Assembly (NCBI GenBank): GCA_944390795.1 | Contig: CALXRI010000024.1 | Coordinates: 1 to 46,152, forward strand | From: an uncultured Victivallales bacterium | GTDB taxonomy: Bacteria > Verrucomicrobiota > Lentisphaeria > Victivallales > UBA1829 | Direction: 5' to 3' | Length of the DNA: 46,152 bases | Part shown: positions 7,265 to 31,757 of the stretch, in pieces | How positions within the stretch are numbered: position 1 is the first letter of the stretch | Layout: the number at the start of each line of letters is the position of its first letter | Notes under the pieces: generated by a model | The model's database searches: none | What the model was told of the DNA's origin: nothing | The model's input: the letters and a program-made list of their open reading frames with translations, nothing else | Translations under genes and position numbers: made by a program

Positions 7265-7302
7265 TTTTATAATTTCATATATTTTTTTATCATTTCATAT
7301 AT
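7264..7302. promoter_or_regulatory. Tandem 19-bp direct repeat, putative AraC half-sites
   Basis: Two 19-bp copies (7264-7282 and 7284-7302) differ at one base and start 20 bp apart, close to two helical turns. Each reads TTTTTAT(A/C)ATTTCATATAT. Same-face direct half-sites about 20-21 bp apart are typical for AraC-type regulators. The first copy touches the araC start codon, which suggests autoregulation. Confidence 0.55.
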
Positions 7303-7460
7303 AAAAATAGCTCCGGAAACTGTTTTTTCAAGCAATCCGCCGTATCTTGGGAGAGAAAACCGAAACCGGCGGACAACACCCGCAGCATCCGGAAACGCGG
7401 CATTTCGCTCCGCCGGACTTTTCCGGAATGCCGGAAACGGAACCGCCAAAGGAGAAAACC

Positions 7461-8282
7461 ATGCAGGAATTCAAGCTGGAACAGCACGCGGCAAGTCTGC
7501 TTCCCGACGGGAAGAAATGGAAACTGATCTGGAACGACGAGTTCGACGGACGGAAACTGGACCGGAGCAAATGGGACTTCCGGCTTCATTTCTGGGGAAA
7601 ACGCTTTCCGGCTTTCACTGAGGAAGGCGTCGAACTCGACGGACAGAGCCATCTGCGGATTCACCTCATCGAACGGGACGGCCAGTACTGCTCCGCGCAG
7701 CTTCAGACAGGATCGCTGACCTATGATCTGCCCCGGCCGGAAGAAGGATTCTGGCCGTTCGGCGGCTATCAGAAACAGAGGTTCCTTCACAAATTCGGCT
7801 ACTATGAAATCCGCTGCCGCCTGAACAGGCAGGCGGGATGGTGGACGGCGTTCTGGCTGCAGTCGCCGTCGATCGGGGCGCATCCCGATGCGGCGCAGTG
7901 CGGCGTGGAATGCGACATCATGGAAAGCCAGGATTATCCGACGGAGGGGAAAATACGCTGCGGCAACATCTGGAACGGTTACGGAGAGGACGGAAAAGGA
8001 TCCGGACACCGCAAATTCATTCTGAAGGACACCCCGGACGGTTGGCACCGTTTCGGCGTGGACTGGAGCAGCGCGGGCTACGTCTTCTATACGGACGGCG
8101 AAGAGGTGAACCGCGTGGAAGGCCCGGTCTCCAATGTGGAGCAGTTTCTTCTCATCACGGCGGAACCCATGGGATACCGCGACTTCACGAATCCGGGTCC
8201 CGATCCGCTTCTGAAACAAATCGTCTTTCCGGAATATTTCGAGGTTGATTACGTCCGCGTCTTCGATGCGCAGGAAATCTGA
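7461..8282 (+). CDS. Glycoside hydrolase family 16 protein
   Basis: A beta-jelly-roll hydrolase of the laminarinase/agarase/kappa-carrageenase/xyloglucanase family. The catalytic motif E-x-D-x-x-E is at E150, D152 and E155 (ECDIMES): nucleophile, assisting Asp and acid/base. Conserved cleft residues include WWTAFWLQ (127-134). The frame continues upstream to 7347, but ATG 7461 follows AAAGGAG at good spacing and gives 273 residues that begin at the GH16 fold (KLIWNDEFDG). There is no signal peptide, which is unusual because most GH16 enzymes are exported. The substrate is a beta-1,3 or beta-1,4 glucan or galactan by family only. The divergent AraC gene probably regulates it. Confidence 0.93.
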   Translation: MQEFKLEQHAASLLPDGKKWKLIWNDEFDGRKLDRSKWDFRLHFWGKRFPAFTEEGVELDGQSHLRIHLIERDGQYCSAQLQTGSLTYDLPRPEEGFWPFGGYQKQRFLHKFGYYEIRCRLNRQAGWWTAFWLQSPSIGAHPDAAQCGVECDIMESQDYPTEGKIRCGNIWNGYGEDGKGSGHRKFILKDTPDGWHRFGVDWSSAGYVFYTDGEEVNRVEGPVSNVEQFLLITAEPMGYRDFTNPGPDPLLKQIVFPEYFEVDYVRVFDAQEI

Positions 8283-8302
8283 TCCGCACCAATACTGATA
8301 CG

Positions 8303-8333
8303 AAAAAAGCCCCGTCGAAGCGGGGCTTTTTTT
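8303..8333. terminator. Bidirectional terminator
   Basis: GCCCCG (8309-8314) pairs with CGGGGC (8321-8326). Six A before and seven T after make it work on both strands. It separates the convergent GH16 and DUF4838 genes. A second hairpin without a T-tract lies at 8353-8370 (CCCTCCC/GGGAGGG). Confidence 0.88.
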
Positions 8334-8379
8334 CTGCGGCTTTCCCTGCATTCCCTCCCTCGCGGGAGGGTGCATCCGG

Positions 8380-10776
8380 TCATTCCGCGTAAATTACCGA
8401 GGGCCGCCAGATTCCGCCCGCTCCGTAGGAGTCGTGACCGTGCACGGCGATCACATTTTCCCCTTCCGGACGCCAGAGTTTCGTCACGTCCGCGGCAATG
8501 GATTTGTCCCAGTCGCTCAGAGGACGGCGCGAAGCGACCATTACGCCGTTGAAATAGATGTCTCCGCAGTCGTCAATGGAACCGATCCGGAGAATGATTT
8601 TCTTCCCTTCCGGCATCGGAGGAGCCTTGAAGCGGCAGCGGTACCAGAAGCTTCCGTTCAGAAACGCGTATCCCTGCGGCTCGAAGCAGTTCCACGTGGA
8701 AATGGACTGCCATCCCCGCGAATCGTCCAGCGCAACGGATTCATATTTCTCCTTCAGCCCGATTTCATCCGGATCGGCGCGGAATTTCCAGTTTTCCGGC
8801 AGAAAAAAGAGTCCTTCCGTCTTTTTCGGCACGGCGGCGCCGGCAAACGCCTCCCGGAGGCGCGTCTTTTCATCCTTCAGCTCCGGACGCCCCTTCGCCT
8901 TCGCCTTCGACAAGTCGCCGGAAGCGATCACCCGGCGCATGAATTCAAGGAGCGACGGAGAACAGGTTTCATCAAGATCGTTGTCCGCCCAGTATTTGAG
9001 ATAATCCGCAGAAAGCCGCCGGAAGAGCTCATCGCTTTCCTTCGTCCGCTCATTCAGATTCGTGCAGAGAGCGCGGTAAAGTTCCGCCGCGCGCGCCTGC
9101 ATCTCAAATGTCATGCGGAAGCGTTTGAGGCGCTCCAGTTCGACGCCGGTCACCTGATTGGCGGCATCGTCAAGCAGACGGCGGCCGCGCCGGATCAGAT
9201 TGTCCGGCAGCATCCGGTGCGTGGCTTCGATGCTTCCCAGCTCGATTCTGCTGAACTTGCGCAGTTTCGGGTTGTAGAAGTTCATCACGTCAAGAACCTG
9301 CTGGCCGGCAAGTCCGTAATAGACGCGGCAGAACTCCTCCAGATATTCATAGGGATTCCGTCTCCCGTTCCAGGCGAACTGCGCGAGGCTCCAGAGAATG
9401 GGCCATGCCTGTTCGTTGCGCTGCATCACCTCGACATGATAGCGTTTGTACCCGAGTTTCTCATACTGGACGGCGGCATCCAGAATGTTCAGGGGCTGCG
9501 GCGTCGTCTCATAGAGCAGATAGTCATAGTTCTGCATGTTCACCGCCCCCTGTTTCCGGATGGCGGAGATATCCTCGTAGAATGTGGTGTTGAACGGATA
9601 ATGCTTCCCCATGATAACGGCCTCGGTCCGGCAGGTGATCGGAACGATGTTGGGCTGAATCCGGACATCCGGCGGAGGCTGCCGCAGTCCGGAGCCGGAA
9701 TACGGCACAAAGAAGCTGATCGCCGCGTCCGGGCGTTTTTTCGCAATTTCCGAGGCGACGTAATTCATGAAGTTCCATACCAAACGGTCATTGGCGAACG
9801 GCCCGTCCCCGGCGATTTTCCGGCATTGCGGGCATTCGCAGAGCCCCAGGCAGTCCGCAAGGCTCAGATCGGCGCAGACGCCGGAGACCTCGTCCAGGTC
9901 TGTGACCCGTTTCTCCCGTTCCGCATCATATTTCGCATACCATGCGAGCACATGGTTCACGGCGGCCTCCCGGTTGCGCGGATCGGAGAAGCAGATCTGC
10001 CCGCCGGACCGGATCCGTTTCTGCACCCCGTTCACGGTGACAAGAGGGAAGCGTTCCGGATTCTTCTTCATGTCCACGCCGCGCAGCACGTTCACCTGGA
10101 GCCCGTGCCCCCCGCCCCGCCCCTCCACGGGAAAATTGAACAGATGGCCGGTGTGAATCGCACGGTGGAAATGGAGGCGGTTCCGGATCAGCCAGAGATC
10201 GTAATCCTGATGAATCCGTCCGGTCAGGCGGTTGAAATTTTTTGCATTGAAGTGCGCGTCATGCCAGGATCCGAGGTCCATCTCCCTGCCGATGAAGCGC
10301 GGAGAATGGCTTTTGCGGGAACGCCCGATGAGGATATCCTTCCGCTTCGGAATATGCGTCCCGACCGCGCCGGGCGTGAACCAGCGGCAGCCGAGCTGTT
10401 CCAGATACTGATAGACGCCGTAAAGCACCGCGGTCTCCGTGTTTCCCTGAATCCGCACCGTGCTCCCGCTCTCGATCAGGATGAAGGCCTGCGCGGACTG
10501 CTTTCCCTTCCAGAGTTTTTCCGGCCTCACTTCCAGATGAATGCCGGGCGCCCATTTCTGCACGGCGAAACAGACGGGCGGCGGCGTTCCGCACATCGCC
10601 TGAAGATGTTCCCGCAGCTCCTGCACGGCAAACAGGATCGGACCGCCGTTCCGGAGCGCGGGAAGATAAATCGCCCCTTGCGCTTCGCCGTCCTTGTACA
10701 GATACCCCGTATTGCGGAAGTGGGCGCACAGCGGCAGCGCCATCAGGCATGCGAACAGGATGCAGAACCTTTTCAT
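8380..10776 (-). CDS. Secreted DUF4838 protein with C-terminal beta-sandwich
   Basis: A 798-residue protein with signal peptide MKRFCILFACLMALPLCAH. The N-terminal part resembles the alpha-glucuronidase/GH20-type accessory domain (TETAVLYGVYQYLEQLGCRWFTP). The DUF4838 core follows, with the Cys cluster CECPQC near residue 330 that is shared with the DUF4838 protein at 23599. Residues from about 655 form a GH2-like sugar-binding beta-sandwich (NGSFWYRCRFKAP, DIYFNGVMV). A glycosidase role is likely by fold and context but no substrate is known. Last gene of a six-gene minus-strand operon; its start overlaps the esterase stop by 4 bases. Confidence 0.85.
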   Translation of the reverse strand: MKRFCILFACLMALPLCAHFRNTGYLYKDGEAQGAIYLPALRNGGPILFAVQELREHLQAMCGTPPPVCFAVQKWAPGIHLEVRPEKLWKGKQSAQAFILIESGSTVRIQGNTETAVLYGVYQYLEQLGCRWFTPGAVGTHIPKRKDILIGRSRKSHSPRFIGREMDLGSWHDAHFNAKNFNRLTGRIHQDYDLWLIRNRLHFHRAIHTGHLFNFPVEGRGGGHGLQVNVLRGVDMKKNPERFPLVTVNGVQKRIRSGGQICFSDPRNREAAVNHVLAWYAKYDAEREKRVTDLDEVSGVCADLSLADCLGLCECPQCRKIAGDGPFANDRLVWNFMNYVASEIAKKRPDAAISFFVPYSGSGLRQPPPDVRIQPNIVPITCRTEAVIMGKHYPFNTTFYEDISAIRKQGAVNMQNYDYLLYETTPQPLNILDAAVQYEKLGYKRYHVEVMQRNEQAWPILWSLAQFAWNGRRNPYEYLEEFCRVYYGLAGQQVLDVMNFYNPKLRKFSRIELGSIEATHRMLPDNLIRRGRRLLDDAANQVTGVELERLKRFRMTFEMQARAAELYRALCTNLNERTKESDELFRRLSADYLKYWADNDLDETCSPSLLEFMRRVIASGDLSKAKAKGRPELKDEKTRLREAFAGAAVPKKTEGLFFLPENWKFRADPDEIGLKEKYESVALDDSRGWQSISTWNCFEPQGYAFLNGSFWYRCRFKAPPMPEGKKIILRIGSIDDCGDIYFNGVMVASRRPLSDWDKSIAADVTKLWRPEGENVIAVHGHDSYGAGGIWRPSVIYAE

Positions 10777-12062
10777 TTTGCAAAATCCTTTTTCATGAAC
10801 GCTTCATTTTTCAAACTTCCCTCGCGGCTGACCATGTGGGAGGTCCCCTGCATCAGAAGCATCTCCTTCGGAGCGGTGATCCGGTTGTATACGGCGTAAA
10901 CCGAATGCGGGGGACAGACAATGTCGATCGCGCCGCAGTTCATATTGACGGGGACCTTGATCTTCGGCACGAAGTTGACGAGATCGAAATAGCCGCAGAT
11001 TCTCTTCCTCTCCGCATCCGGAAGCTGTTTTTCAAAACGCGCCATGACACTGTAGAGATTCGGCCAGCCTGGCGCACGGGCGGAAAAACGCCCGTTCTGA
11101 TCCCCGAAGGCGGGAATGGAGGCGGAAACCGCCGTAACCTTTCCGGAGAAGGCCGCGCACATCAGGGAAAGCGCGCCGCCCTGACTGCTCCCGGCAGCCA
11201 CCAGCGATCTGCCGTTCCAGTCAGGCCGCGCCGCCAGATAATCGACCGCGCGGCAGAGTCCGGGAACGACCCGCGCGAGATAATATTTTTCCGGGACGGC
11301 GGCATTCCTGGCCTGATAGGGACGCGGCTTGTCAATTTTCGCATATTCGCTCCGGAAAAACGTCTTGTCGGAAGGATCGATGCAGTGAATGTTCATCTGG
11401 AGCGTGATGACGCCGGGCTGGAACCGCGGCGCGGTGAACCCCGGACCCGCCCCGGGAATGCGGAGAACGGCGGGATATTTCGCCTGTGCGGAGCCGGACG
11501 GCACGCTCAGGAAGCCGTACATGCGCTCCTTTCCCAGCGCAAAGCTCAGGAGATATGCCGTATGCGTCTTCGGCACGCCCTGCGTCAGCGTCTTCAGCTG
11601 AAAATCCGGAGGAGTCTCCAGAGCGTTCCGGAACACTTTCTCCCAGAAGGCGTCGAAATCAGCCGGAGCGGCAACGTCCGCTGTCAGCTTCTCCGGCTCA
11701 AACGGCACGGTGTCCCGGCCGTAGACGTAAACGGTCTTTTTCCCCGGAGCCCGGTATGCCCAGGTGCGGCAGGTGAGAAATCCGCTTTTCCGCATGGACG
11801 CCGTGATTTCCCGGGGATTTCCCTCCGCCAGATCAAGCTCGATCTTTTTTGCCGGGATGCCGTTTTCCTGAATGGAAATCTCCAGCACGCCGTTTTTCAG
11901 CATCTTGCCGTCCTCCATCGCCTTCACGGTAAAACGGACCTCTTCGCCGGGCTTGCGGTTTTTCAGCGGATCCTGCGCATGCACCTCGGTCAGCGGTGCG
12001 GCATGCAGCGAAATCCCATACAGGAAAAGGGCGAAAAACATAACGCATCTGCAAATCGACAT
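10773..12062 (-). CDS. Secreted CE7-type acetyl esterase (AXE1/cephalosporin deacetylase family)
   Basis: A 429-residue exported alpha/beta-hydrolase. After the signal peptide (YGISLHAA) there is an N-terminal beta domain of about 110 residues, then the AXE1 fold. The nucleophile is S293 in GSSQGG, with D380 (CGAIDIVCPP) and H409 (GTSHM) completing the triad. CE7 enzymes remove acetyl groups from xylo-oligosaccharides and related glycans. AAGGAG 8 bases before the ATG supports the start. It overlaps the DUF4838 gene by ATGA, so deacetylation and backbone cleavage are probably coordinated. Confidence 0.9.
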   Translation of the reverse strand: MSICRCVMFFALFLYGISLHAAPLTEVHAQDPLKNRKPGEEVRFTVKAMEDGKMLKNGVLEISIQENGIPAKKIELDLAEGNPREITASMRKSGFLTCRTWAYRAPGKKTVYVYGRDTVPFEPEKLTADVAAPADFDAFWEKVFRNALETPPDFQLKTLTQGVPKTHTAYLLSFALGKERMYGFLSVPSGSAQAKYPAVLRIPGAGPGFTAPRFQPGVITLQMNIHCIDPSDKTFFRSEYAKIDKPRPYQARNAAVPEKYYLARVVPGLCRAVDYLAARPDWNGRSLVAAGSSQGGALSLMCAAFSGKVTAVSASIPAFGDQNGRFSARAPGWPNLYSVMARFEKQLPDAERKRICGYFDLVNFVPKIKVPVNMNCGAIDIVCPPHSVYAVYNRITAPKEMLLMQGTSHMVSREGSLKNEAFMKKDFAK

Positions 12063-12104: not shown

Positions 12105-12683
12105 TCATTCAACGGCGACGACGAAAAGATCATCCAGATCCAGCGCCTGGTGCACGCCGAAATTGACTGCGCCGCGGTCCTTCGGAATCGCCTGCGTCAG
12201 AAGCGGTTTTCCATCCACAGCAAGCTTCATCTCCTTTTCCAGGACATCAATGGAGCACGTGTGCCACTTTCCCGGTTCCAGCGGAACGGCGAAATCCACC
12301 TTTTTCGTGGTTTTTGTCCCATGGTTGAAGTAGGTGGCGTTTTTTGCCGTGAAATTGACTCCGCCGCCGCGGAAGGAGGTGCTGAAATGCAGCGTGCCGT
12401 CATAACGGAAGCGGAAGGAAAGGCGATAGTTTTTCCAGTCCTTCCCGCCATACTGGTAAAAGATGGTGCTGTGATTCAGGACGGCGTAGCTTTTCGCGGG
12501 GATTTTCATGTAGACGTTGCCGTCCGCCTCCTTCACGGCCTCCCCTTTCTGGACATAGGGGGGGCGTGCGCCGGGCGCCACAGCGGAAAAGTCATTTCCG
12601 AATAGCGGCTGGGGACGGGTTTCCGCCTCGGCCGCGCCGAGAGTTCCGCAGAGCGTCAGAACGGCAAGAGCAAATGTTTTCAT
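12105..12683 (-). CDS. Small secreted LamG-like beta-jelly-roll protein
   Basis: A 192-residue protein with a signal peptide (MKTFALAVLTLCGTLGAAEA). The rest reads as one concanavalin-like sandwich (WKNYRLSFRFRYDG, FSTSFRGGGVNF, GKWHTCSIDVLEKEMKLAVDGKPL), similar to LamG/DUF1080-type folds. It is probably a glycan-binding module or small hydrolase; no catalytic residues can be assigned. AGGAG lies 6 bases before the ATG. It lies between the giant protein and the esterase in the operon. Confidence 0.75.
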   Translation of the reverse strand: MKTFALAVLTLCGTLGAAEAETRPQPLFGNDFSAVAPGARPPYVQKGEAVKEADGNVYMKIPAKSYAVLNHSTIFYQYGGKDWKNYRLSFRFRYDGTLHFSTSFRGGGVNFTAKNATYFNHGTKTTKKVDFAVPLEPGKWHTCSIDVLEKEMKLAVDGKPLLTQAIPKDRGAVNFGVHQALDLDDLFVVAVE

Positions 12684-12715: not shown

Positions 12716-15700
12716 TTATTCGAATGCGACGAAATTGCGCAGACGGATTTTACAGTCTGCAACGGAAACCAGACGGTTCAGATCCGCCGCATGGCGGGGC
12801 ATCGCCACAGCCAGGCCCGCAACGCTGACAGGATAGACGGGAATGCCGTCGCCGTCCGCCTTCCATACGCCGCCGGAAGCATTCACCTCGCTCAGGCGGA
12901 CGCGGGAGGCCGATGTGAACGGGAACTGGATCGTTCCCCATCCGTCGAAATTGACATAGGAGAGCGCTCTTCCGTCACTTCCGTATCCCTCGCCGCTGGA
13001 AATGAACGTCTGCCCCCTGGAATCGATGAGAACGAAGAAAATGCGCGCCCATGAGGAGTTGCCGAAAACTTCAATCCCGAGACTGGACGGTTTTCCCTTC
13101 AGGGGAACGGGACGGCGGAAGGCGATATTGACATACTCCGCGACCGTCGGCGGAATCTTCTTTCCCGGGGGAGACGGAAGCAGCTCAAGCTCCAGACAAT
13201 CGCGGGAATCGCGGAGAACGAAACGGCCGGGCGTCCGCCAGGGAGAGGCGAGCCGTCCGTCCATGCCCTCCATCAGGAGGACGTTTGCGACCGAACGGAG
13301 CGGGTCGACGCTCTGCAACTTCTCCGGCGTCACGCGGGGAGGCGTTTCCCGCCGGACGATCCGGATCGTCTTCACTTTCCGCACGCTGCTCAGATAGAGC
13401 GGGAATTCCGAGATCCGCACGGAAACGCCGGCGCCTGTCCGGCGCACCGTCTCGCGCGCGCCGTAAAATCCGGTGATTTCCGCCCGCGGATCCCCGTCGA
13501 ATTCCACGGAGAGCTCGGCACTTCCGCGCGGAAGCCAGAGCGGATAGACGAAGCGTCCTCCCTCCCCCGCGAATTCCATGGCGTAAACCGTCAGGGACCC
13601 GGTCGGGACGCGGCGCACAAAGCGTGCTTTGTCCAGAACCTTTGTCATGGCCGCGGCCGCAACATAAACAGGTTTCGGATAAAGCAGCGGATAACGCCGG
13701 CACATGGCGCCGCCGCCCCACTGGGTGTTGAAATAGGAATCCTCCACGTCATACAGCGTCCCGAGGGGAACATTTCCGAAGCCGTAGGCATGGGCGAGGA
13801 GGGCGTCGCGCACACACCAGGCGGCTCGCTCCCCGCGCGTCAGTTCGCGGTCGATGTGGCCGACCCACTCGTAGCACGCCTCCACCGGCTGCGGATATCC
13901 GTGCATGCGTCCGATCTCCCGCAGGAACCATGCCCCGTGCGGTCCGCCGGATTCCAGAAACAGCTCGGGCAGGCAGAACCGCCCGACGGCTTCACTGCCG
14001 AGAAAATCGAACAGCTCCTTCGGGAATTTCATGCCGAGCATGGCGTCCGCAATGGCGGTCGAGGACGCGCTGTTTCCCATGACCAGCCTGATCTGCGGGA
14101 ACTTCTCCCGGAACATGCGCGCGACGGCGCAACCCGTTTCAAACAGCTTTTCCAGCGCCGCGCGGTTCCGCGCAGGAAGAGGCTGCGCGGTTCCGCCGTA
14201 CAGACGGGGCGGAACCGGACCGCCGTAACTTTCATGGAAGATCAGCGCACTTTTACAGGAGGGATATGCCGCGGTCGTTTTACGGACCTCCGCCTCGTAA
14301 AGTCTGATCTTCTCCGCGAGGGGAATCCGCTTGCGGATGATGTCATGGAACCACGGGATCTGCGTCAGCGTCAGCTTCCAGGGGGCGAGTCTCCGCTCGT
14401 CCGTATTGAGAAATGCGGCGGTAATGCGGCGGATTCCGGCCTTTTTCAGCATGGGACCCGCGACTGCGGGATCCGCCGTCCCGTTGTGATGCGGCCCGAA
14501 CCACCATCCGGAATAAGGGGATTCGAGCCCCGCCTCGCGCGTGTCCTTCCCGAGCTCCGCAAACGATGCACGGTGAAGAACCAGTTCCCGTCCGCGGGAA
14601 TCGAGCAGCGAGAGCGCAAGGTCGTAATGTCCTTCGGACGGCATGCGCAGGTCCAGCTCCTTCCGGACCGTCTCGCCGGCTTTCAGCTCCAGCGCAAAAG
14701 AGTTTTCCCGGATCGTTTTTCCGTCGACGGAGCCGATGAGCGCCTTCACCTGATATTTTCCCTCTTCGGCGGCAGTGACGCGGACCGGAGTGCGCCGCGG
14801 ATCGGCGTCCGCGAAAATCAAGCCCGGCACACTCTGTTCAAGCTCCATTTCGGCAGGTGCTGCCTCCAGGGCAACTCCGAACACAAGCGCACCGCTTTTT
14901 TCCGCTCCGGGCTTCCTGCTGAAATCCCAGAGGATCCCCGCCTTGCCGAGCGGTCCGAGAAGTTCAAAATCCAGATAAGGAGTTCCGAGCGAGCCAAGTT
15001 TTCCCTTTTTGACAAACAGATAATCCTGAATTTCCCCGACCGGCAGCCTCACCTCATACAGCGCGACATCGAGCGGCTTCCCCCCGACGGCGGCCTTTCC
15101 GACAATCCGCCGCGGAGCCTTTGACAGATCGATCGAGGCATCCGCCACGGCATCCCCGACGCCGCCGAGACGGTAGCGCGTCAGGCGGGCGGTCAGAATC
15201 GGAGATTTCGCCGGATCCGGATCCAGCGCCGCCAGAATATGCGCCTTCCAGTACTGGCGGGAGGGAACGCTGTAGAGAAAGGACTCCGGCATTCCGGAAA
15301 ACGCGCTTCTGGAAAGATAGGCGTCCAGCTCCTGCTGCGGACGGGTGAATTCCTTATGGCGCGCAATCCGGAGAAATGTCCCGTCCGCTTTCAGAAAATC
15401 CGGAAGTTTTTCCTGCAGTTTCAGTTCCGCGCGCTCCACCTGATTCTGCTTTCCGGTCTCAAGAGTGAGAAAACGCGGCTTTCCCGCGGCTTTCCCGGCG
15501 GCAAGAGTCCCCCGTCGCCCGTCCGCAGGCAGCCGCAGCATGATTTTTGCAAGTTTCCTTCCGGAGAAAACGCCGGCGAAACGCCCGTCCAGCCAGACCG
15601 ATGTTCCGGCATCCTCCGGCAGAAAACGGAGTTCCGTCTCCCGCTCCGAAGCCCCCGGCAGGGAGAGAAAGCCATCAATCCGTTCCGCGCGTTTTTCCGA

Positions 15701-16492
15701 ACCGTAAAAACGGCAGTCCGGCCGGATGAAATGCTTGATGTTCAGGCCTTCCGTGCGGAAATACGCGTCGGGAATCTCCCGGCGGCGCCAGAGGGTTTTC
15801 TTCTTCTCCTTCACCGGAACGGACGCATAATCGGACGCGGGAATGAACTGCAGGCGTTTTTCCGTGCCGTCCCGGAAGCTCAGATCCAGAGTGGCTCCGC
15901 CCCGCCCCGTCTGAAAGGAGACGACGGCCGTTCCCCCTTCCGGAACATCCAGCACATGCACCGGAAACTCCGCCACGGGATCCGAGACCGTGAACTTGCG
16001 CACCTCGACAGTCCCGTCAAGAATCATGCTCAGTTCCTCCGTCTCTCCGGAAAAAGGCAGGAAAGCGCCTTCATGCCAGATCTCTCCGTTCCGGATGAAA
16101 AGCGCGCTCCCGTTTCCGGAAGAGCGCAGGCGCGCCTGAAGCCACTGATCCGCGGGAAGCCCCTCGTAAAATCCGAGATCGCGCCAGAAGCGGTTCGGGT
16201 AGGCGGTGATTTTTCCCGTGGCTCCGAAAAAGACGCTCGGACGGCAGTAGCCCGGAAGAATCGTAAAGGACGCAGTCGCGCGTCCCGTCTCCCGTCCGCC
16301 CCGACGCTCCAGTCGGAGATTCCCCTTCCCTCCTTTCGGAAAACGGAATTCAAATTCCAGAGAGCGCGCGGAAGGAACGCTCCAGACTTTTTCCGCCTTT
16401 TTCCCGGTATGGGAGAACTCCATTGCAAAGGCGCCGCCCAGCAGCAGGCACTCCGCAAGAACAACCAGAAAACTCCTGCATGAAATCATCAT
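12716..16492 (-). CDS. Giant secreted protein, probable glycoside hydrolase of unknown family
   Basis: A 1258-residue protein with a signal peptide (LLLGGAFA). The first about 650 residues are beta-rich sandwich domains with LamG-like and GH2/Ig-like stretches. From about 655 to 1000 there is TIM-barrel character: SPYSGWWFGPHHNG, then AGIRRITAAF, IFHESYGG near residue 754, RLVMGNSASS near 806 and ACYEWVGH near 874. The acidic residues at barrel strand ends (HESYGG and YEW) are candidate catalytic pairs, an inference from the clan-A fold. The C-terminus (about 1050-1258) is another beta-sandwich ending in a possible CBM-like domain. I cannot assign a CAZy family. It is the central gene of the operon. 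Confidence 0.78.
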   Translation of the reverse strand: MMISCRSFLVVLAECLLLGGAFAMEFSHTGKKAEKVWSVPSARSLEFEFRFPKGGKGNLRLERRGGRETGRATASFTILPGYCRPSVFFGATGKITAYPNRFWRDLGFYEGLPADQWLQARLRSSGNGSALFIRNGEIWHEGAFLPFSGETEELSMILDGTVEVRKFTVSDPVAEFPVHVLDVPEGGTAVVSFQTGRGGATLDLSFRDGTEKRLQFIPASDYASVPVKEKKKTLWRRREIPDAYFRTEGLNIKHFIRPDCRFYGSEKRAERIDGFLSLPGASERETELRFLPEDAGTSVWLDGRFAGVFSGRKLAKIMLRLPADGRRGTLAAGKAAGKPRFLTLETGKQNQVERAELKLQEKLPDFLKADGTFLRIARHKEFTRPQQELDAYLSRSAFSGMPESFLYSVPSRQYWKAHILAALDPDPAKSPILTARLTRYRLGGVGDAVADASIDLSKAPRRIVGKAAVGGKPLDVALYEVRLPVGEIQDYLFVKKGKLGSLGTPYLDFELLGPLGKAGILWDFSRKPGAEKSGALVFGVALEAAPAEMELEQSVPGLIFADADPRRTPVRVTAAEEGKYQVKALIGSVDGKTIRENSFALELKAGETVRKELDLRMPSEGHYDLALSLLDSRGRELVLHRASFAELGKDTREAGLESPYSGWWFGPHHNGTADPAVAGPMLKKAGIRRITAAFLNTDERRLAPWKLTLTQIPWFHDIIRKRIPLAEKIRLYEAEVRKTTAAYPSCKSALIFHESYGGPVPPRLYGGTAQPLPARNRAALEKLFETGCAVARMFREKFPQIRLVMGNSASSTAIADAMLGMKFPKELFDFLGSEAVGRFCLPELFLESGGPHGAWFLREIGRMHGYPQPVEACYEWVGHIDRELTRGERAAWCVRDALLAHAYGFGNVPLGTLYDVEDSYFNTQWGGGAMCRRYPLLYPKPVYVAAAAMTKVLDKARFVRRVPTGSLTVYAMEFAGEGGRFVYPLWLPRGSAELSVEFDGDPRAEITGFYGARETVRRTGAGVSVRISEFPLYLSSVRKVKTIRIVRRETPPRVTPEKLQSVDPLRSVANVLLMEGMDGRLASPWRTPGRFVLRDSRDCLELELLPSPPGKKIPPTVAEYVNIAFRRPVPLKGKPSSLGIEVFGNSSWARIFFVLIDSRGQTFISSGEGYGSDGRALSYVNFDGWGTIQFPFTSASRVRLSEVNASGGVWKADGDGIPVYPVSVAGLAVAMPRHAADLNRLVSVADCKIRLRNFVAFE

Positions 16493-16506: not shown

Positions 16507-17244
16507 TTACAAATAAACCGTAAACAGTCCGAATTTCGGAGGCGAATCCTTCAACGCCTCCTGAAACGTGAAGGAGCGGACCGATCCGTCGACAAAACCG
16601 ATCACCGTCGTGCTCATATGATAAAATCCAACTCCCGCATTATCGGGAATGCCGTTTTCCGTCACCTTGTACCCGGATACGCGGATATATCCTGCAGCGC
16701 CGGTTCCGCAGCAAGCGACACGGCCGGTCTGCCCGGGCCGCTTCAGCATCCCGAGTTTCAAATGCTTCGGACTGACGACCGTTCCGGCGGAATTGCAGCC
16801 GGTGCCGTCAGGTCTTGCGTAATAATAACACCAGCCCTCGAAATTCAGGCCGGAATTCATCATGTAGGTGCCCTCCACGCCGTTCCATGAAGCGGTCTCG
16901 TAAATACGGCTTCCCGGACACCCCCAGAGGGTGTTCCGGCAGTTCAGCTTGTCAGACTCGTAATAGGTGATCAGCTTGACGCCGAGCCACGGATTGACAA
17001 TCTGCGACCATCTCTTTTTATTGAACTGCGAAGGAGGCGCGGCGACGCCGTTGTAATCGTCACAGTACATGGTGATTCCGAGGTTGATCTGCTTGACGTT
17101 GCCGGAACAGGCAATCCGGTATGCAATCTGCCGTGCTCTGCCGAGCGCGGGCAGAAGAAGACTGACCAGAATCGCAATGATCGCTATCACGATGAGAAGT
17201 TCGATCAATGTAAATGCTTTCATCCGCTTGTCATTTTTCATCAC
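16507..17244 (-). CDS. Prepilin-like protein with C-terminal H-X9-DG motif
   Basis: This 245-residue protein begins at a GTG that overlaps the regulator stop by 4 bases. The N-terminus carries a type IV prepilin/pseudopilin signal: [24 protein letters not shown], with Glu at position +5 of the mature form. The C-terminus has the H-X9-DG motif (H then nine residues then [11 protein letters not shown]). Such proteins occur in very large families in Lentisphaerota and Planctomycetota; their role is unknown but they are expected to be membrane or envelope anchored after peptidase processing. Here the gene sits inside a glycan-degradation operon, so an envelope-displayed binding function is possible. 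Confidence 0.9.
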
Positions 17245-18248
17245 AAACTCCTTTCCTCAATAAGATTCAGCAATTTCTCAACAGCCTTCACGGCGGACGC
17301 GGAATTCCCGAGATTCAGGCAGATCACCTGGTCGAAGATCCCGTTGTACAAACTTCCGGCGGGGGAATCGCTTCTCCGGTAGTTGCAGATCGTATAGGGA
17401 TGCGGTCCCTCCGGTTTCAGCATCCTGTATTTCCAGTATCCGGAACGGGCGTCGCCGTGAATGTACAGGACATCCGGATTCCGCTCCATCAGGGCGCAGC
17501 ATTCCGGATAGCCGTCCGAGTTGGTCGAAGCGATGAGTTCATCGGGAATGACTGCACCCGCCTCCGCGACGGCAAGGCGGAGAGCCTGAATGCTCTCCCT
17601 GTCCGCTTCATAGCTCGGATCCCCCATGAGCGCTGCGATCCGTTTTCCCCGGAACGGGCGGAAATATCCGGTCAGCTTCCGGAAGAGCTGATTCAGAAGA
17701 TCAACCCGGACCTGCGGATGTTCCGCGGAAATGGCGTAATTGCCGAGAACAACATAGGGCACATGAAACTGCCGCAGTTCCTGAAGAAGCGGTTCGTTCA
17801 CATCGCCGGACACCAGAAATCCGTCAAAATGCAGGTCGCGGCGGATCAGCTCCGTCACGTTCTCCCCGCTCCTGAAATTGTCCAGGAGAACCGCCTCGTA
17901 AAGATGTTCGTACGCGCAGTTGTAAACCGCCTGCATGACCGCGCCGTCCGCCATCGGATTGGTTCCGGGATATACGAAACCGATCCGGTAAAAACGCCCC
18001 GTTTTGAGCCCGGGATTGACAAAGACACCGCGCTTGGGCTCCGTATAAAGGTAATGGCGCGTGGCAAGCGCGCGGAACGCATAATGCACCACCCGGTAAC
18101 CGACGCCATACTCCGCGGCCAGTTTCCGGACGCTGGGCAGTTTGGCTCCCGGACGGTAGATCCCGTCATGAATCTTCCGGATGACATCCTCCACAACCGT
18201 CATGTAAAGCGGGTGCAGCTCTTTCGCGTTTTCAGGCTCGTCTGCCAT
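17241..18248 (-). CDS. GntR-type regulator with LacI-like sugar-sensor domain
   Basis: An N-terminal GntR winged helix ([37 protein letters not shown]) is joined to a periplasmic-binding-protein fold ([22 protein letters not shown] ... [11 protein letters not shown] ... [24 protein letters not shown]). This is the AraR-like architecture, in which a sugar releases the repressor from DNA. The frame extends to an ATG at 18263, but that codon is too close to its GGAG; ATG 18248 has GGAG 9 bases upstream. First gene of the six-gene operon, overlapping the prepilin gene by 4 bases. The two TTGTAACAA-like boxes in its promoter are likely its own operators. Confidence 0.9.
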
Positions 18249-18269
18249 TCTCCAGGGCTCCATTCTCCG

Positions 18270-18538: not shown

Positions 18539-19579
18539 GTGGCGGTCACGATCAAAGACATCGCAAAGGCTGCGCGAGTGGACAAGGCGGCAGTGTCGCT
18601 GACGTTGCGGAACCGTCCGGAAGCGCAGCGCCTGCGCCCCGAGACCAGGGATCGGATTCTGAAAACCGCCCGGGAACTGGGCTATCAGCGCAATCTTCTC
18701 GCCTCGGCGACCCGGACAGGCGTCGTCAACACGATTGCCGTCATCGGACGCTTCCGGAAAGACGATGTTCCGCCCTGCACAAACCGGATGCTCGCCGGCA
18801 TTCTGACCACATGCACACAGTATGGCTACAACATCAAAGTCTATTCCGACATGAATCTGGACGAGGTTTTCGCGGAAATCGGAGGGAGCCGCATTTTCCA
18901 TGTCATTTCCCTGCTTGTCAAACGGGAGGAGCGGCAGAAAACCGCGGATTTCTGCAAACGGGGCGGAATCAGGCTGGTTCACGTGTATGAGGACGCGTCA
19001 GACGGTTTTCCCTCCGTCAACACGGACAATTTCGCGTCAGCCCGTGAAGTGGTGAACCATCTGGCTTCCATCGGACACCGGAGAATCGCCCTGCTCTGCG
19101 CGCCGCACCGCTACCTCTACATCCGGGAACGCCACGACGGTTATCTGCAGGGACTGCGGGATGCCGGTCTGCAGGCGGATTCCCGCCTGATCGACTGTTC
19201 GGAAGATTCGGGACAGGGAGTCGCGGCAATGCTCGCCCTGCCGGAAAAAGAGCGTCCCAGCGCCGTATTCGCGCTCGCAGACTCTCTCGCCGTCAAGGCG
19301 GAATATCTCGCAATCCGGCTGGGATTCAGAGTGCCGGAGGATCTTTCGGTCTTCGGATTCGGAAACACGGAGATCTGCGGTGCGGCCCTTGTCCCGGTTT
19401 CAAGCGTGGAAGAGTCGCCTTACGACTGCGGGGAGCTGGCAGTGAAAATCATTCTGGACAAACCGGCGGACGTGCGGCGGCGGGAGGACGGGCGCTATCT
19501 GATCGCCCCCCGTCTCGTTCACAGGGATTCCACGGCGCCCCGCATGCACGGATGCGGACAACAGAGGAACAACAAATGA
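18539..19579 (+). CDS. LacI-family transcriptional regulator
   Basis: A 346-residue protein with the classical LacI HTH and hinge (VTIKDIAKAARVDKAAVSLTLRNRPEAQRLRPETRDRILKTARELGYQ). A periplasmic-binding sensor domain follows (RERHDGYLQGLRDAGLQ, PEDLSVFGFGNTE). The start is GTG 18539, with AAAGGAAA upstream. It is followed directly by a glycosidase-like gene; an ATG inside its last codons overlaps the stop (ATGA at 19576). It probably represses its own operon (18539-22390) until a sugar binds. Confidence 0.94.
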   Translation: MAVTIKDIAKAARVDKAAVSLTLRNRPEAQRLRPETRDRILKTARELGYQRNLLASATRTGVVNTIAVIGRFRKDDVPPCTNRMLAGILTTCTQYGYNIKVYSDMNLDEVFAEIGGSRIFHVISLLVKREERQKTADFCKRGGIRLVHVYEDASDGFPSVNTDNFASAREVVNHLASIGHRRIALLCAPHRYLYIRERHDGYLQGLRDAGLQADSRLIDCSEDSGQGVAAMLALPEKERPSAVFALADSLAVKAEYLAIRLGFRVPEDLSVFGFGNTEICGAALVPVSSVEESPYDCGELAVKIILDKPADVRRREDGRYLIAPRLVHRDSTAPRMHGCGQQRNNK

Positions 19580-19653
19580 AATCAGGCATGCCGCCATATT
19601 CCGCCAGAAATCTGGAAGCGGACGGCATCCAACTAAAAAATCGGAGGTTTTCG

Positions 19654-21738
19654 ATGCTCAGGGAAGCAAAGTATGAATTCAGAAAACGCATTGACGAAGT
19701 GCACCGCCCCGGCGTGCGCCGCGAGACGGCGGAATGCGGATCGGGAGAGGTCGCCCTGAACGAAGGCTGGACGATTGTCTCACCGGAACCGCCGACAGAG
19801 GGCAGCGCCGCTCCGGATCTTCAGGATTATCTGCAGGTCAGCATGAACCTCTCCCTGCCGATCCGGAAACAGGCGGAAGGGAAAACGATCCGTCTGACTC
19901 CGGAGGAGGACAAGGGCTTCTTCTGGAAGGTGGAGCCGGAATGCATCGAAATCCGCGGGAATGTCCGGCGCGGCGTGCATTATCTGGAGGATCTGATGAA
20001 CTTCCGGGAGGCGCCGTATCTGAAATGCGGAAGCGGGCGGCGCGATCCCCTCTTCACCCCGCGCATGGTTCACTCCGGCTGGGGGCTGGACCAGTTTCCC
20101 GACCGCCATCTGAACGCCATCTCCCACGCAGGATTCGACACGATCCTGCTGTTCGTCAAGGGCGTCGACCTGACCACGCACGGCGTGATGGACTTCAACG
20201 ATCTGATCCGCCGGGCCGCAAACTATGGACTGGGCGTCTACTTCTACAGCTATCTGGACAGTTACAAACACCCTGCGGAACCGGATGCGGACGAGTTTTT
20301 CGACCGGAATTACGGCAGGGTGTTCCGGGAGTGCCCCGGAGCCAAAGGCCTGATCCTTGTCGGAGAGTCCTGCATCTTCCCGAGCAAAGACACCAGGACC
20401 ACGGGAAAACGGATGAGCCGCTCCAATGCGGAAAACGACGGAATCGTCGATCCGCGCCCCATGCCGGGATTCTTCCCCTGCAGCGACTATCCGGAATGGC
20501 TCGAAGCCGTCAAAAAGGCGGTGCGCCGCTATGCGCCGGATGTCGACATCGTCTTCTGGACCTACAACTGGGGCAGCAAACCGGAAGGCCCGCGGCTCGA
20601 GCTGATCCGCAGTCTGCCGCGCGACATCTCGCTGGAAGTCACCTTCGAGATGTATGAAAAACGCCATTATCCGAATCATACGATGGTTTCGCCGGACTAC
20701 TCCATCACCTTCCCCGGTCCGGGGAAATACTTCACCAGCGAAGCGGAAACCGCCCATGAGCGGGGGCTCCGCCTCTACTCCATGACCAATACGGGCGGAA
20801 TGACCTGGGACTGCGGCGTAATTCCCTATGTTCCGGTCCCCCAGCAGTGGTTCAAACGGTTCGCGGGAATCCACGAGGCGCGGGAAAAATGGAATCTTTC
20901 CGGACTCATGGACTCCCATCACTACGGATGGTTCCCGTCGGTGGTATGCGAATGCGCCAAATGGAGCTTCTGGTCGCCGACGCCTGACATGAACGAACTT
21001 CTGCACCGGATCGCCGTGCGCGACTTCGGCGCAAAAGGGGCACAAGCGGCCGTCGCCGCCTGGCGGAAATGGAGCGATGCGATCGCCTCCTATACGCCGG
21101 GATTCGACGACCAGGCGGGGCCGCTCCGGATCGGACCGGCCTATCCGTTCATTTTCCATCCGATTCTCTACCCGCACACCGAACAGAAGATGCTTTACCC
21201 GACCACCCCGCAGTCCTCGGTCGGCGCCAGATGGCTGCATCCGTTTTACCAGCCCGAACACATCTACGGGCACACGAACTGCGGACGGCGCATTCACGAA
21301 GACGTCAAAATCATGTCCCGTTCCGTGGAACTCTGGGGAGAAGGCGTCAGGCAGATGGACGAAGCGATCCGCCTTGTCCCGGAGGAGAAACGCCATGCCG
21401 CGGAACAGCAGGCGGGGGTCGGAAAATTCTTCTGGCATGCGCTCCGGACCATGCTCGGAATCAAGAAATGGTGGATTCTGAACAAGCGTCTGGAACTGGA
21501 ATATGATTTTGAAAAGGCGCACGGAATTCTCGACGAGATGGAAGCGCTTCTCCGCGAAGAGGAGCAAAACGTCCGGGAGGCGCTGCCGCTGGTCGATGCC
21601 GATTCGCGCCTCGGATGGGAACCGAGCATGGACTACATGGCGGACCGCGAACATCTGGAATGGAAGCTCCGCCAGCTGGACACGCTTCTGAACAAGACGA
21701 TTCCGGCCTACCGGAAAACCGTTGCCCTGAAGCCGTGA
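19654..21738 (+). CDS. Cytoplasmic glycosidase-like TIM-barrel protein
   Basis: About 694 residues without a signal peptide. After a short N-terminal alpha/beta domain (IRGNVRRGVHYLEDLMNFREAPYL, like GH20/GH67 accessory domains) comes a probable TIM barrel (FTPRMVHSGWGLDQFPDRHLNAISHAGFDTILLFVKG ... DVDIVFWTYNWGSKP) and a helical C-terminus. The fold suggests a glycosidase acting on imported oligosaccharides, but I cannot name the family or the catalytic pair. Two starts are possible: ATG 19576 overlapping the lacI stop after GAGGAA, or ATG 19654 after a stronger GGAGG at 6 bases. I prefer 19654 because the residues between look non-domain. Confidence 0.8.
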   Translation: MLREAKYEFRKRIDEVHRPGVRRETAECGSGEVALNEGWTIVSPEPPTEGSAAPDLQDYLQVSMNLSLPIRKQAEGKTIRLTPEEDKGFFWKVEPECIEIRGNVRRGVHYLEDLMNFREAPYLKCGSGRRDPLFTPRMVHSGWGLDQFPDRHLNAISHAGFDTILLFVKGVDLTTHGVMDFNDLIRRAANYGLGVYFYSYLDSYKHPAEPDADEFFDRNYGRVFRECPGAKGLILVGESCIFPSKDTRTTGKRMSRSNAENDGIVDPRPMPGFFPCSDYPEWLEAVKKAVRRYAPDVDIVFWTYNWGSKPEGPRLELIRSLPRDISLEVTFEMYEKRHYPNHTMVSPDYSITFPGPGKYFTSEAETAHERGLRLYSMTNTGGMTWDCGVIPYVPVPQQWFKRFAGIHEAREKWNLSGLMDSHHYGWFPSVVCECAKWSFWSPTPDMNELLHRIAVRDFGAKGAQAAVAAWRKWSDAIASYTPGFDDQAGPLRIGPAYPFIFHPILYPHTEQKMLYPTTPQSSVGARWLHPFYQPEHIYGHTNCGRRIHEDVKIMSRSVELWGEGVRQMDEAIRLVPEEKRHAAEQQAGVGKFFWHALRTMLGIKKWWILNKRLELEYDFEKAHGILDEMEALLREEEQNVREALPLVDADSRLGWEPSMDYMADREHLEWKLRQLDTLLNKTIPAYRKTVALKP

Positions 21739-21853
21739 AAAAAACCGGCGTCCGTTCAGACGGAAGGATGAAAACGATATGCCCGGAAATACGCCGCACG
21801 GGAAACAGTCCCGTGTTTCACAAAAAACAGAAACCTGAAAAGGGGGAAAGACA

Positions 21854-22390
21854 ATGCAAAACAAAACCATTCTGACAGCCGCGCTCGCCGTTCTGACTGC
21901 GGCGCTGTTCGCCGCCGACGCCAGGGAAGCAGTCCGGAACGGAAACTTCAAGGAAAGCGCTCCGCCGCCGAAAAACGCCAGGGGCATTACGGGAACGCAG
22001 TGGGTGAAATACTGGAACTGCGCCGGAGCGGCAACCATGAAAGACGGAAAAATCCAGCTCTCCTCCGGAGTGATCTATCAGTTCCTGAACCTTCCGCGCG
22101 ACGGCAAGGCATATCTGCTGAAAGGGGAAGTGAAAGCCGCCGCCATGCAGGGGAAAAACGCCGGACAGCTGTATGTCCGTCTGAGTTCGTGCATCCGGAA
22201 GGATCCGAAAACACCGTTTTCCCATGCGCTCCAGAAGAAAACCGACCAGTTCAAACTGACGCCCGCGCTTCAGACATACAAATTCGAATTCAAAATCGAA
22301 CCTTACGAACAGGGCTATCTCTATGTCGGAGGGGGCGGCATGCAGCTTGAATCCGTTTCAGTCATGATGGAGCCTGTCGCGGCGAAATAA
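21854..22390 (+). CDS. Small secreted CBM-like protein
   Basis: A 178-residue protein with signal peptide MQNKTILTAALAVLTAALFAADA. The remainder reads as a single beta-sandwich of carbohydrate-binding type (AVRNGNFKES, VIYQFLNLPRDGKAYLLKGEVKA, LQTYKFEFKIEPYEQGYLYVGGGGMQLESVSV), the pattern of CBM4/CBM9-like modules. AGGGGGAAAG precedes the ATG. It closes the lacI operon and probably binds glycan at the cell surface. No catalytic motif is seen. Confidence 0.75.
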   Translation: MQNKTILTAALAVLTAALFAADAREAVRNGNFKESAPPPKNARGITGTQWVKYWNCAGAATMKDGKIQLSSGVIYQFLNLPRDGKAYLLKGEVKAAAMQGKNAGQLYVRLSSCIRKDPKTPFSHALQKKTDQFKLTPALQTYKFEFKIEPYEQGYLYVGGGGMQLESVSVMMEPVAAK

Positions 22391-22404
22391 CGGCAATCCG
22401 GCAA

Positions 22405-22428
22405 GCCCCGTCCGGAAACGGGGCTTTT
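22405..22428 (+). terminator. Terminator of the lacI operon
   Basis: GCCCCGT (22405-22411) pairs with ACGGGGC (22418-22424) around a 6-base loop, followed by TTTT. It lies 15 bases past the small secreted protein gene. Confidence 0.85.
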
Positions 22429-22430
22429 CC

Positions 22431-23375
22431 TCAGACTGTGCGCCTGCGATATTTTCCGATCGCGCGCATGGTGATTTGCTGAACTTCCGCAGGGGCTTCG
22501 TTGTTGTGTCCGTAATAGTAACAGGACAGATGATCCGGAGCGATTTCGGACATCGTCAGTTCCAGCTCTTTCTCATATTCCTCATGCACGCTCTCCGGCA
22601 TCAGAATGTTCTCAATCAGCACAAACGTTCCGCAGGAGGAGCCGCCGGGATTTTCCCCGACGGTCCGCTTCCACATCTGTCTGGCGCGCGGCTTGACTTC
22701 ACGCGGCTCCTCGTGAAAGTAGCTCATCCGGGAAATCGAGGCGTCGAATCCGCAGAAATCGATCCCCGGGATCAGGGGGCACCTTGCCGTAAAACGCCGG
22801 TCCGTTCCGGGCATATTGAACACCGTGACGGAAAGTTCCGGGCGGATGCGCCTGGCGGCGGCGGTCAGCTCCGCCAGATATCCGACAAAACTGTCCATCA
22901 TGTTTTCCGGAGTCGGAGACGGGCCGTATTTTGCAAGCGTGTCCGGATGCGTCGAAATCAGGGAAACCGCCTTGGGTTCGTCCCATATAAGACCGTCGAT
23001 CTCAAAGGAGGAGACAAGATTTTCGACGAAATGCAGCGACCACTCCCGGTATTCCGGATTCTCCAGGCACGCGATCGCGGGGTCTTCCGGCACTCCGCTT
23101 CCGGGATGGTTCGCAAGCCACAGGCATGGCATCAGCGGCGCGCCTGCGAAACGGCCGCCGATCCGGCTCGGAATCGCAAAGACCTTGAGTCCGGCCTGAT
23201 GCGCGAGACGTATCTGCATTTCAAACGTGCGCATGGCATAACGGGCTTCGCTTTCGCTGAATGTAAGATCCACGGCGTCGAATCCGTTTGCGGCAATGTC
23301 ATCAAACGTCATCTTCCAATGATCCGGGATTACGGTCCAGTTGCCGTAACTGAGCGTATAAGCAGACAGCAGCAT
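22431..23375 (-). CDS. TIM-barrel-like protein of unknown function
   Basis: A 314-residue protein without a signal peptide. Alternating strands and helices (MLLSAYTLSYG, DDIAANGFDAVDLTFSESEARYAMRTF, LAHQAGLKVFAIPSRIGG, FEIDGLIWDEPKAVSL, GIDFCGFDASISRMSYF) fit a (beta/alpha)8 barrel. IWDEPK places an Asp-Glu at the end of a likely strand 4, as in clan-A glycosidases. I chose ATG 23375 because GGGAG lies just upstream and a promoter follows at 23410-23437; the frame extends to 23498 without support. It may be a glycosidase or a sugar isomerase-like protein. It stands alone, divergent from the DUF4838 gene. Confidence 0.8.
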   Translation of the reverse strand: MLLSAYTLSYGNWTVIPDHWKMTFDDIAANGFDAVDLTFSESEARYAMRTFEMQIRLAHQAGLKVFAIPSRIGGRFAGAPLMPCLWLANHPGSGVPEDPAIACLENPEYREWSLHFVENLVSSFEIDGLIWDEPKAVSLISTHPDTLAKYGPSPTPENMMDSFVGYLAELTAAARRIRPELSVTVFNMPGTDRRFTARCPLIPGIDFCGFDASISRMSYFHEEPREVKPRARQMWKRTVGENPGGSSCGTFVLIENILMPESVHEEYEKELELTMSEIAPDHLSCYYYGHNNEAPAEVQQITMRAIGKYRRRTV

Positions 23376-23409
23376 TGTTTTCTCCCTGTTTTTCCGCATG
23401 TCGCCGATA

Positions 23410-23437
23410 AGCATAGCACGGGAAATGATTTTTTCAA
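23410..23437 (-). promoter_or_regulatory. Promoter of the TIM-barrel-like gene
   Basis: -35 TTGAAA (23437-23432) and -10 TATGCT (23415-23410) with a 16-base spacer lie just upstream of the chosen start. This supports ATG 23375 over the longer frame. Confidence 0.55.
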
Positions 23438-23598
23438 GCGGTCCGAAATCCCGTATCTCTGCGGAAAAGCGGGTTCGTGCATCGGAAAGCCCATCCATGA
23501 TTCCGGAACATCAGCCGGAATGACGGAAAACGGAAGAAACAGCGGATAAAAGATAAAAAACTCTATTTCCAACACAGACAGGAAAGGATTCAGGACAA

Positions 23599-28074: not shown

Positions 28075-28183
28075 AGTGCAAATTTGCGGCGGCCGGAAAA
28101 TTCCCCCTCCGGCATCCGGGATGACACGCGGGATTTCTTGTGCTCCGTCATGAACAGTCAACATCAATTACAACAGGATAAAA

Positions 28184-30190
<2,007 letters not shown>

Positions 30191-30209
30191 GGAAGCGGGA
30201 GACGCCGCC

Positions 30210-30515
30210 ATGACCGCAGCGGAACTGGCCCAGGCGTTGAAAAACGCGGACGGCGGTGTGATTCTCTCCTGCCACGTCCAGCCCAACGCCTCCCGGACGG
30301 CAGTTGCCGGAATGTACGGCACGGAACTGAAAATCACGCTCAAGGCGCCGCCCGTGGACGGCAGGGCGAACAAGGAGCTCTGCCGTTTTTTCGCCGACAC
30401 CTTCGGGCTCTCCTCCACCTCCGCGCAGGTTGTCGCCGGACAGACTTCCCGGAAAAAAAAGGTGTTCCTGCGCGGCGTCACAGCCGAACGCGTCCGGAAG
30501 GAGTTTGCACAATGA
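30210..30515 (+). CDS. DUF167 (YggU) family protein
   Basis: A 101-residue protein matching the YggU family: ILSCHVQPNASRTAVAG, LKITLKAPPVDGRANKEL and SRKKKVFLRGV are the conserved blocks. The function is unknown in all bacteria. The open frame extends upstream into ftsH, but ATG 30210 follows GGAG and gives the normal family length. Its stop overlaps the mnmA start (ATGA), so the two are coupled. Confidence 0.92.
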   Translation: MTAAELAQALKNADGGVILSCHVQPNASRTAVAGMYGTELKITLKAPPVDGRANKELCRFFADTFGLSSTSAQVVAGQTSRKKKVFLRGVTAERVRKEFAQ

Positions 30516-31600: not shown

Positions 31601-31757
31601 CATGAATTTCAGAAGCCGCATTCAAAACAAAAAGAAACGGAAGTGTTCTTCCGGACTCGCAGACTCTGCGCCCCCCGCGGTCCGGCGGCGGAACGCATGC
31701 CCCGCGGCGCATGGAATTCTCTTCTTCCCCAATCCCCATACTTAAGGAGACCCGGAA

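Follow-up and report, generated by a model that had tools for sequence, protein, structure and literature searches.

The window, by which we mean the whole stretch of 46,152 nucleotides analyzed here, contains an operon of six minus-strand genes separated by gaps of -4, 14, 32, 42, and -4 bp:

17241 to 18263, minus strand: GntR-type regulator, opening the operon (Pfam)
16507 to 17244, minus strand: pseudopilin-like DUF1559 protein with an N_methyl motif, overlapping the GntR gene by 4 bp (Pfam, coordinates)
12716 to 16492, minus strand: gene for a predicted secreted multidomain glycosidase of 1258 aa (open reading frame, relatives, shuffle test)
12105 to 12683, minus strand: 192-aa protein that looks secreted and LamG-like by eye, without a Pfam match
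10773 to 12062, minus strand: AXE1 (CE7-type) esterase, E = 1.5e-30 (Pfam)
8380 to 10776, minus strand: DUF4838 protein, E = 4e-16, with a NAGLU_N-like N-terminus that falls below the Pfam cutoff (Pfam)

The reading frame of the 1258-aa protein runs from 16492 to 12716 on the minus strand and comprises 1258 codons beginning with ATG; the plus strand of the same interval is interrupted by stops. In 300 mononucleotide shuffles, stop-free stretches reached at most 345 codons, so an open run of this length is not a product of chance. The protein also has relatives at 96% and 69% identity, and the gene called in an earlier, sequence-only reading is thus real. The two motifs singled out in that reading, HESYGG (residues 753 to 758) and YEWVGH (residues 874 to 879), are both present as described. 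Judged by eye, the N-terminus (MMISCRSFLVVLAECLLLGGAFA) resembles a signal peptide, and the 1258-aa protein is probably exported. The layout of the protein, drawn from the analyses described below, is as follows:

16424 to 16492, minus strand: signal-peptide-like N-terminus, residues 1 to 23 (by eye)
15308 to 16423, minus strand: poorly conserved N-terminal region, residues 24 to 395 (alignment)
14957 to 15277, minus strand: beta-domain, residues about 406 to 512 (strands of the predicted model)
14555 to 14890, minus strand: Ig-like beta-domain ahead of the barrel, residues about 535 to 646 (predicted model)
13631 to 14524, minus strand: putative (beta/alpha)8 catalytic barrel, residues about 657 to 954 (predicted model, structural comparison)
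13346 to 13630, minus strand: beta-sandwich packed after the barrel, residues about 955 to 1049 (predicted model, structural comparison)
12722 to 13318, minus strand: C-terminal beta-domain conserved in the family, residues about 1059 to 1257 (predicted model)
14231 to 14233, minus strand: codon of Glu754 in the HESYGG motif, the proposed acid/base, which follows strand beta-4 (model, invariance, alignments)
13964 to 13966, minus strand: codon of Glu843 (LPE), in a low-confidence loop after beta-6 (model, invariance)
13868 to 13870, minus strand: codon of Glu875 in the YEWVGH motif, the proposed nucleophile, which follows strand beta-7 (model, invariance, alignments)

Searching with the single protein gave matches in 17 of 194 genomes of the phylum. 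A profile built from 21 sequences extended this to 58 of 387 phylum genomes at E <= 1e-10, with 23 of 387 below 1e-100; at the class level, the same profile matched 58 of 197 genomes, 25 of them below 1e-100. The weaker profile matches lay mainly over the last part of the barrel together with the sandwich. One scan beyond the phylum with a single sequence returned two relatives, both from the same group. The genome that carries the window encodes one long paralogue (30% identity) and two short, weak relatives. For alignment and counts of invariance, we used a set of 36 sequences, consisting of the window protein and 35 relatives that scored 500 bits or more against the profile, thinned at 88% identity; lower-scoring relatives are outside these counts, and 13 of them (the two short ones from the same genome and 11 others) were aligned separately. 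One stop lies inside the matched stretch in each of the relatives G206:C403:2511-5879, G261:C183:224-3715, G110:C19:21362-24859, and G434:C387:825-4136; these are decayed copies, assembly errors, or matches running past the end of a gene.

AlphaFold2 modeling of residues 640 to 1069, using the 36 sequences, predicted a (beta/alpha)8 barrel with a beta-sandwich C-terminal to it (pLDDT 87.9, pTM 0.88), and a longer model of residues 380 to 1258 was predicted equally well (pLDDT 88.1, pTM 0.92). The predicted barrel strands fall at approximately residues 660 to 663, 689 to 691, 708 to 709, 748 to 750, 802 to 808, 830 to 833, 870 to 872, and 908 to 912. The core had earlier been assigned to residues 650 to 1010; the barrel is indeed predicted there, but at about 657 to 954, and the rest of that span falls in the predicted beta-sandwich, which extends to about residue 1049. 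In Foldseek searches, the best matches were 5jvk (GH39wh2 of Bacteroides cellulosilyticus WH2; E = 7.9e-15) and PslG of Pseudomonas aeruginosa (GH39; 5bx9/9g17; E = 8.5e-14). Structural comparison (VIA) of the predicted barrel and sandwich gave Z = 28.6 at 3.8 A over 360 aligned residues for 5jvk and Z = 24.1 at 4.1 A over 344 for PslG. When the longer model, which includes the Ig-like domain, was used, 5jvk reached Z = 30.1 at 3.7 A over 441 residues, the alignment covering the Ig-like domain from residue 549 on. GH30 xylanases, GH79-type glucuronidases, and GH51 arabinofuranosidases share the clan fold (Z of about 19 to 23), but they rank below both GH39 structures and are only 7 to 12% identical, and none of the 36 barrels matched the Pfam models of these families. 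GH2 enzymes were numerous in the Foldseek list for the longer model; their TM-scores were about 0.16 to 0.28, and we gave them no weight.

A barrel followed by a beta-sandwich, a trait of GH39, is present in the predicted structure, and with GH39wh2 the likeness goes further, since an Ig-like domain, the (beta/alpha)8 barrel, and a C-terminal sandwich occur in the same order in both. The two proteins are only 15% identical, however, and the 1258-aa protein is larger, with extra beta-domains at both its N and C termini. PslG, at 13% identity, has the barrel and sandwich but, at 416 residues, is without the flanking domains. One report (PMC6933502) describes GH39wh2 as having a beta-sandwich at either terminus and a large groove, and it presents GH39wh2 and PslG as endo-acting enzymes with such a groove. 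The C-terminal beta-domain of the window protein is perhaps sugar binding; searched alone against PDB sequences, it had no relative better than E = 0.44.

Alignment of the 36 sequences showed that W663, H669, G686, E754, P799, E843, E875, R895, P939, and W986 are identical in every member. Glutamates after strands 4 and 7 are a trait of clan GH-A, and E754 and E875 directly follow the predicted strands at 748 to 750 and 870 to 872. The idea of a TIM barrel bearing clan-A-like catalytic acids, first raised from the motifs, is thus backed by the predicted structure, by its structural matches, and by the invariance of both glutamates. The residue preceding the acid/base is His in 24 sequences, Ala in 9, Pro in 2, and Trp in 1, and it is Asn in none of the 36. 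An Asn in this position is usual in clan GH-A, with exceptions, and GH26 likewise carries His there.

Searched against PDB sequences, the barrel profile found 5jvk at E = 2.7e-6, in a match that does not include the catalytic residues, followed by GH10-type xylanases at 2.4e-4 and PslG at 0.036. In the xylanases (4pmx/4pmy), the beta-4 to beta-6 region aligns, and E754 falls on the acid/base Glu of their NEP motif, but only this part of the barrel is matched, and the Pfam GH10 model found 0 of the 36 barrels. In PslG, E754 falls on chain position 139, within a piece that scores only -1.6 bits, and E875 falls on position 250. Adding 26, an offset deduced from the residue ranges of the structural alignment, turns these positions into Glu165 and Glu276, so that both GH39 catalytic roles, a Glu acid/base and a Glu nucleophile, have counterparts by alignment; PslG has Asn before its acid/base where the 1258-aa protein has His. 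In PMC11912335, Glu165 is named as the acid-base and Glu276 as the nucleophile, and Glu276 reacted with a covalent probe. Judging from position and alignment, the HESYGG and YEWVGH motifs likely hold the catalytic pair E754/E875.

The invariance of E843, which sits in a low-confidence loop, raises the alternative of a glycosidase with a different catalytic arrangement, in which Glu843, for example, would be the nucleophile or the acid. We regard this as very unlikely, since it is E754 and E875 that follow strands 4 and 7 and align with a known pair, and since Pro-Glu occurs at the Glu843 position in several wider relatives too, as well as in PslG, whose named pair is a different one. A catalytically dead barrel, serving as a secreted glycan-binding protein, is likewise very unlikely. 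The beta-domains do make up most of the protein, and the wider relatives L058 and L061 seem to lack the acid/base Glu, yet both glutamates are kept in all 36 members, at 15 to 78% identity, together with invariant Arg, His, and Trp residues. The apparent loss in L058 and L061, at a position where others carry NEP or HWEP, may be an alignment error or may mark inactive cousins.

A retaining clan GH-A glycosidase is the most likely identity of the 1258-aa protein. The family placement of the protein is less straightforward. Neither Pfam nor NCBIfam gave a match to the whole protein at E <= 5, and a phmmer search of the PDB gave one match at E = 1.1, which we took as chance. Pfam GH models, including PF01229 (GH39) and GH10, matched 0 of the 36 barrels at E <= 0.1, and when all 36 members were scanned in full, matches were scattered and none was to a GH catalytic domain; Mannosidase_ig, found in 2 of 36, was the most frequent. 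The earlier statement that no known family is matched therefore stands for Pfam and NCBIfam, but it does not hold against a remote relation to GH39, evident from the 5jvk profile match and through intermediates. In hhalign, the barrel family aligned with the profile of the 13 wider relatives at 99.8% (E = 6.7e-30), with both glutamates in register, on the NEP and TE/SE motifs of those relatives. The 13-relative profile in turn found 5jvk at 2e-44, PslG at 5.3e-25, and GH39-type xylosidases at 1.6e-17. Because the wider relatives form this bridge, the barrel family is, on profile evidence, remotely homologous to GH39-type enzymes. These relatives (L097, L017, L030, and others from Victivallales and Verrucomicrobiota) share the homologous barrel and sandwich but differ in having an NE acid/base motif in 6 of 13 and HWEP in 4 of 13 and in their domain makeup, which in some includes a CBM9-like domain.

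The protein could accordingly be read as an outlier within GH39 as delimited by CAZy, with PslG and, by title, GH39wh2 included, and no new family would then be needed. In favor of this, the top structural and profile matches are both GH39 labeled, the Ig-barrel-sandwich order of 5jvk is shared over 441 residues, and the bridging relatives strongly match GH39 structures. We nevertheless consider it rather unlikely: the identity to 5jvk and PslG is 13 to 15%, the direct PDB E value is only 2.7e-6, Asn never precedes the acid/base, and PF01229 matches none of the 36 barrels. The last point is tempered by the narrowness of PF01229, which also misses the bridging relative L030 (18.0 bits against a cutoff of 26); two other GH39 matches in the genome that carries the window are above the cutoff. 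Since no barrel matched PF01229 or another GH model and Asn is never found before the acid/base, we have not filed the protein as GH39. A family-level branch is plausible, and we tentatively propose, at close to an even chance, a new clan GH-A family in Verrucomicrobiota in which Asn-Glu is replaced by His-Glu or Ala-Glu, whose members are mostly about 1200 to 1500 aa, and which at some loci is expressed with a gene-specific pseudopilin that may aid in export or display. In a literature search that covered subscription journals sparsely, we recognized no paper describing the barrel family.

Taken as a whole, the 1258-aa protein is quite probably a multidomain clan GH-A glycoside hydrolase that is exported and acts with retention, belonging to a branch unnamed in the libraries searched and distantly akin to GH39wh2 and PslG. 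In the mechanism we propose, a double displacement, Glu754 would serve as proton donor to the leaving group, and the nucleophilic attack on the anomeric carbon would come from Glu875. The target would be an O-acetylated plant cell wall polysaccharide, from which the CE7-type esterase of the operon would clear acetyl groups. Such a branch would extend the edge of GH39 and clan GH-A and bears on whether the Asn before the acid/base is dispensable. Large exported proteins that no family name covers are numerous in Victivallales genomes; here, there is a concrete enzyme to express, with a likely catalytic pair and a neighboring esterase, and a motif and a 36-sequence alignment for collecting members.

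All six operon genes are conserved, in unchanged order, around the 96% identical relative, which comes from an uncultured Victivallales MAG. In 20 further neighborhoods of relatives, which include that of the paralogue (L073) and leave the near-identical L001 apart, tblastn detected the esterase and the DUF4838 protein in 1 of 20 each, and we rejected the neighborhood as proof of the substrate; the operon therefore does not fix it. An acetylated plant polysaccharide, suggested by the operon esterase, is a possible but somewhat doubtful substrate. Pfam analysis of 20 of the 104 listed neighbors identified FAD oxidoreductases, a GH78-type rhamnosidase, GH43, DUF4838, and DUF1559 proteins, and a Na/H antiporter, with 7 of the 20 giving no match. 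The argument made earlier from the operon is correct as to its CE7-type esterase and DUF4838 neighbors, but it carries less weight for a new glycosidase, because DUF4838 has 47 match rows in this genome (one gene apparently giving two rows). We ruled out that the 192-aa neighbor is a copy of the N-terminus of the 1258-aa protein. Minus-strand open reading frames at 19780 to 22038 and 28148 to 31621 were set aside as neighbors because they oppose plus-strand genes or long frames (a 728-aa frame and an FtsH-like protein), and that at 7290 to 8375 (minus strand) was set aside as Arg rich and without a match.

DUF4838 is strongly expanded in this genome, and two such genes lie in the window, at 8380 to 10776 (minus strand) and 23599 to 25482 (plus strand). 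The latter belongs to a divergent row (18539 to 25482, plus strand) composed of a LacI regulator, 728-aa and 357-aa frames without a Pfam match, and the DUF4838 protein. DUF1559 is likewise frequent, with 53 matches at E <= 0.01 in the 3.4-Mb genome. Among 20 sampled DUF1559 loci (L129 to L148), the upstream gene resembled the GntR regulator of the window in 5 (blast, E <= 1e-4), and at several more it looked regulator-like by eye. Next to the paralogue (L073) and the relative at L087 there are DUF1559 genes too, at L087 with a GntR relative just upstream. The order regulator, DUF1559 pseudopilin, large exported protein thus recurs, in the window (16507 to 18263) and among L129 to L148, and pilin-type proteins may be dedicated to single enzyme operons.
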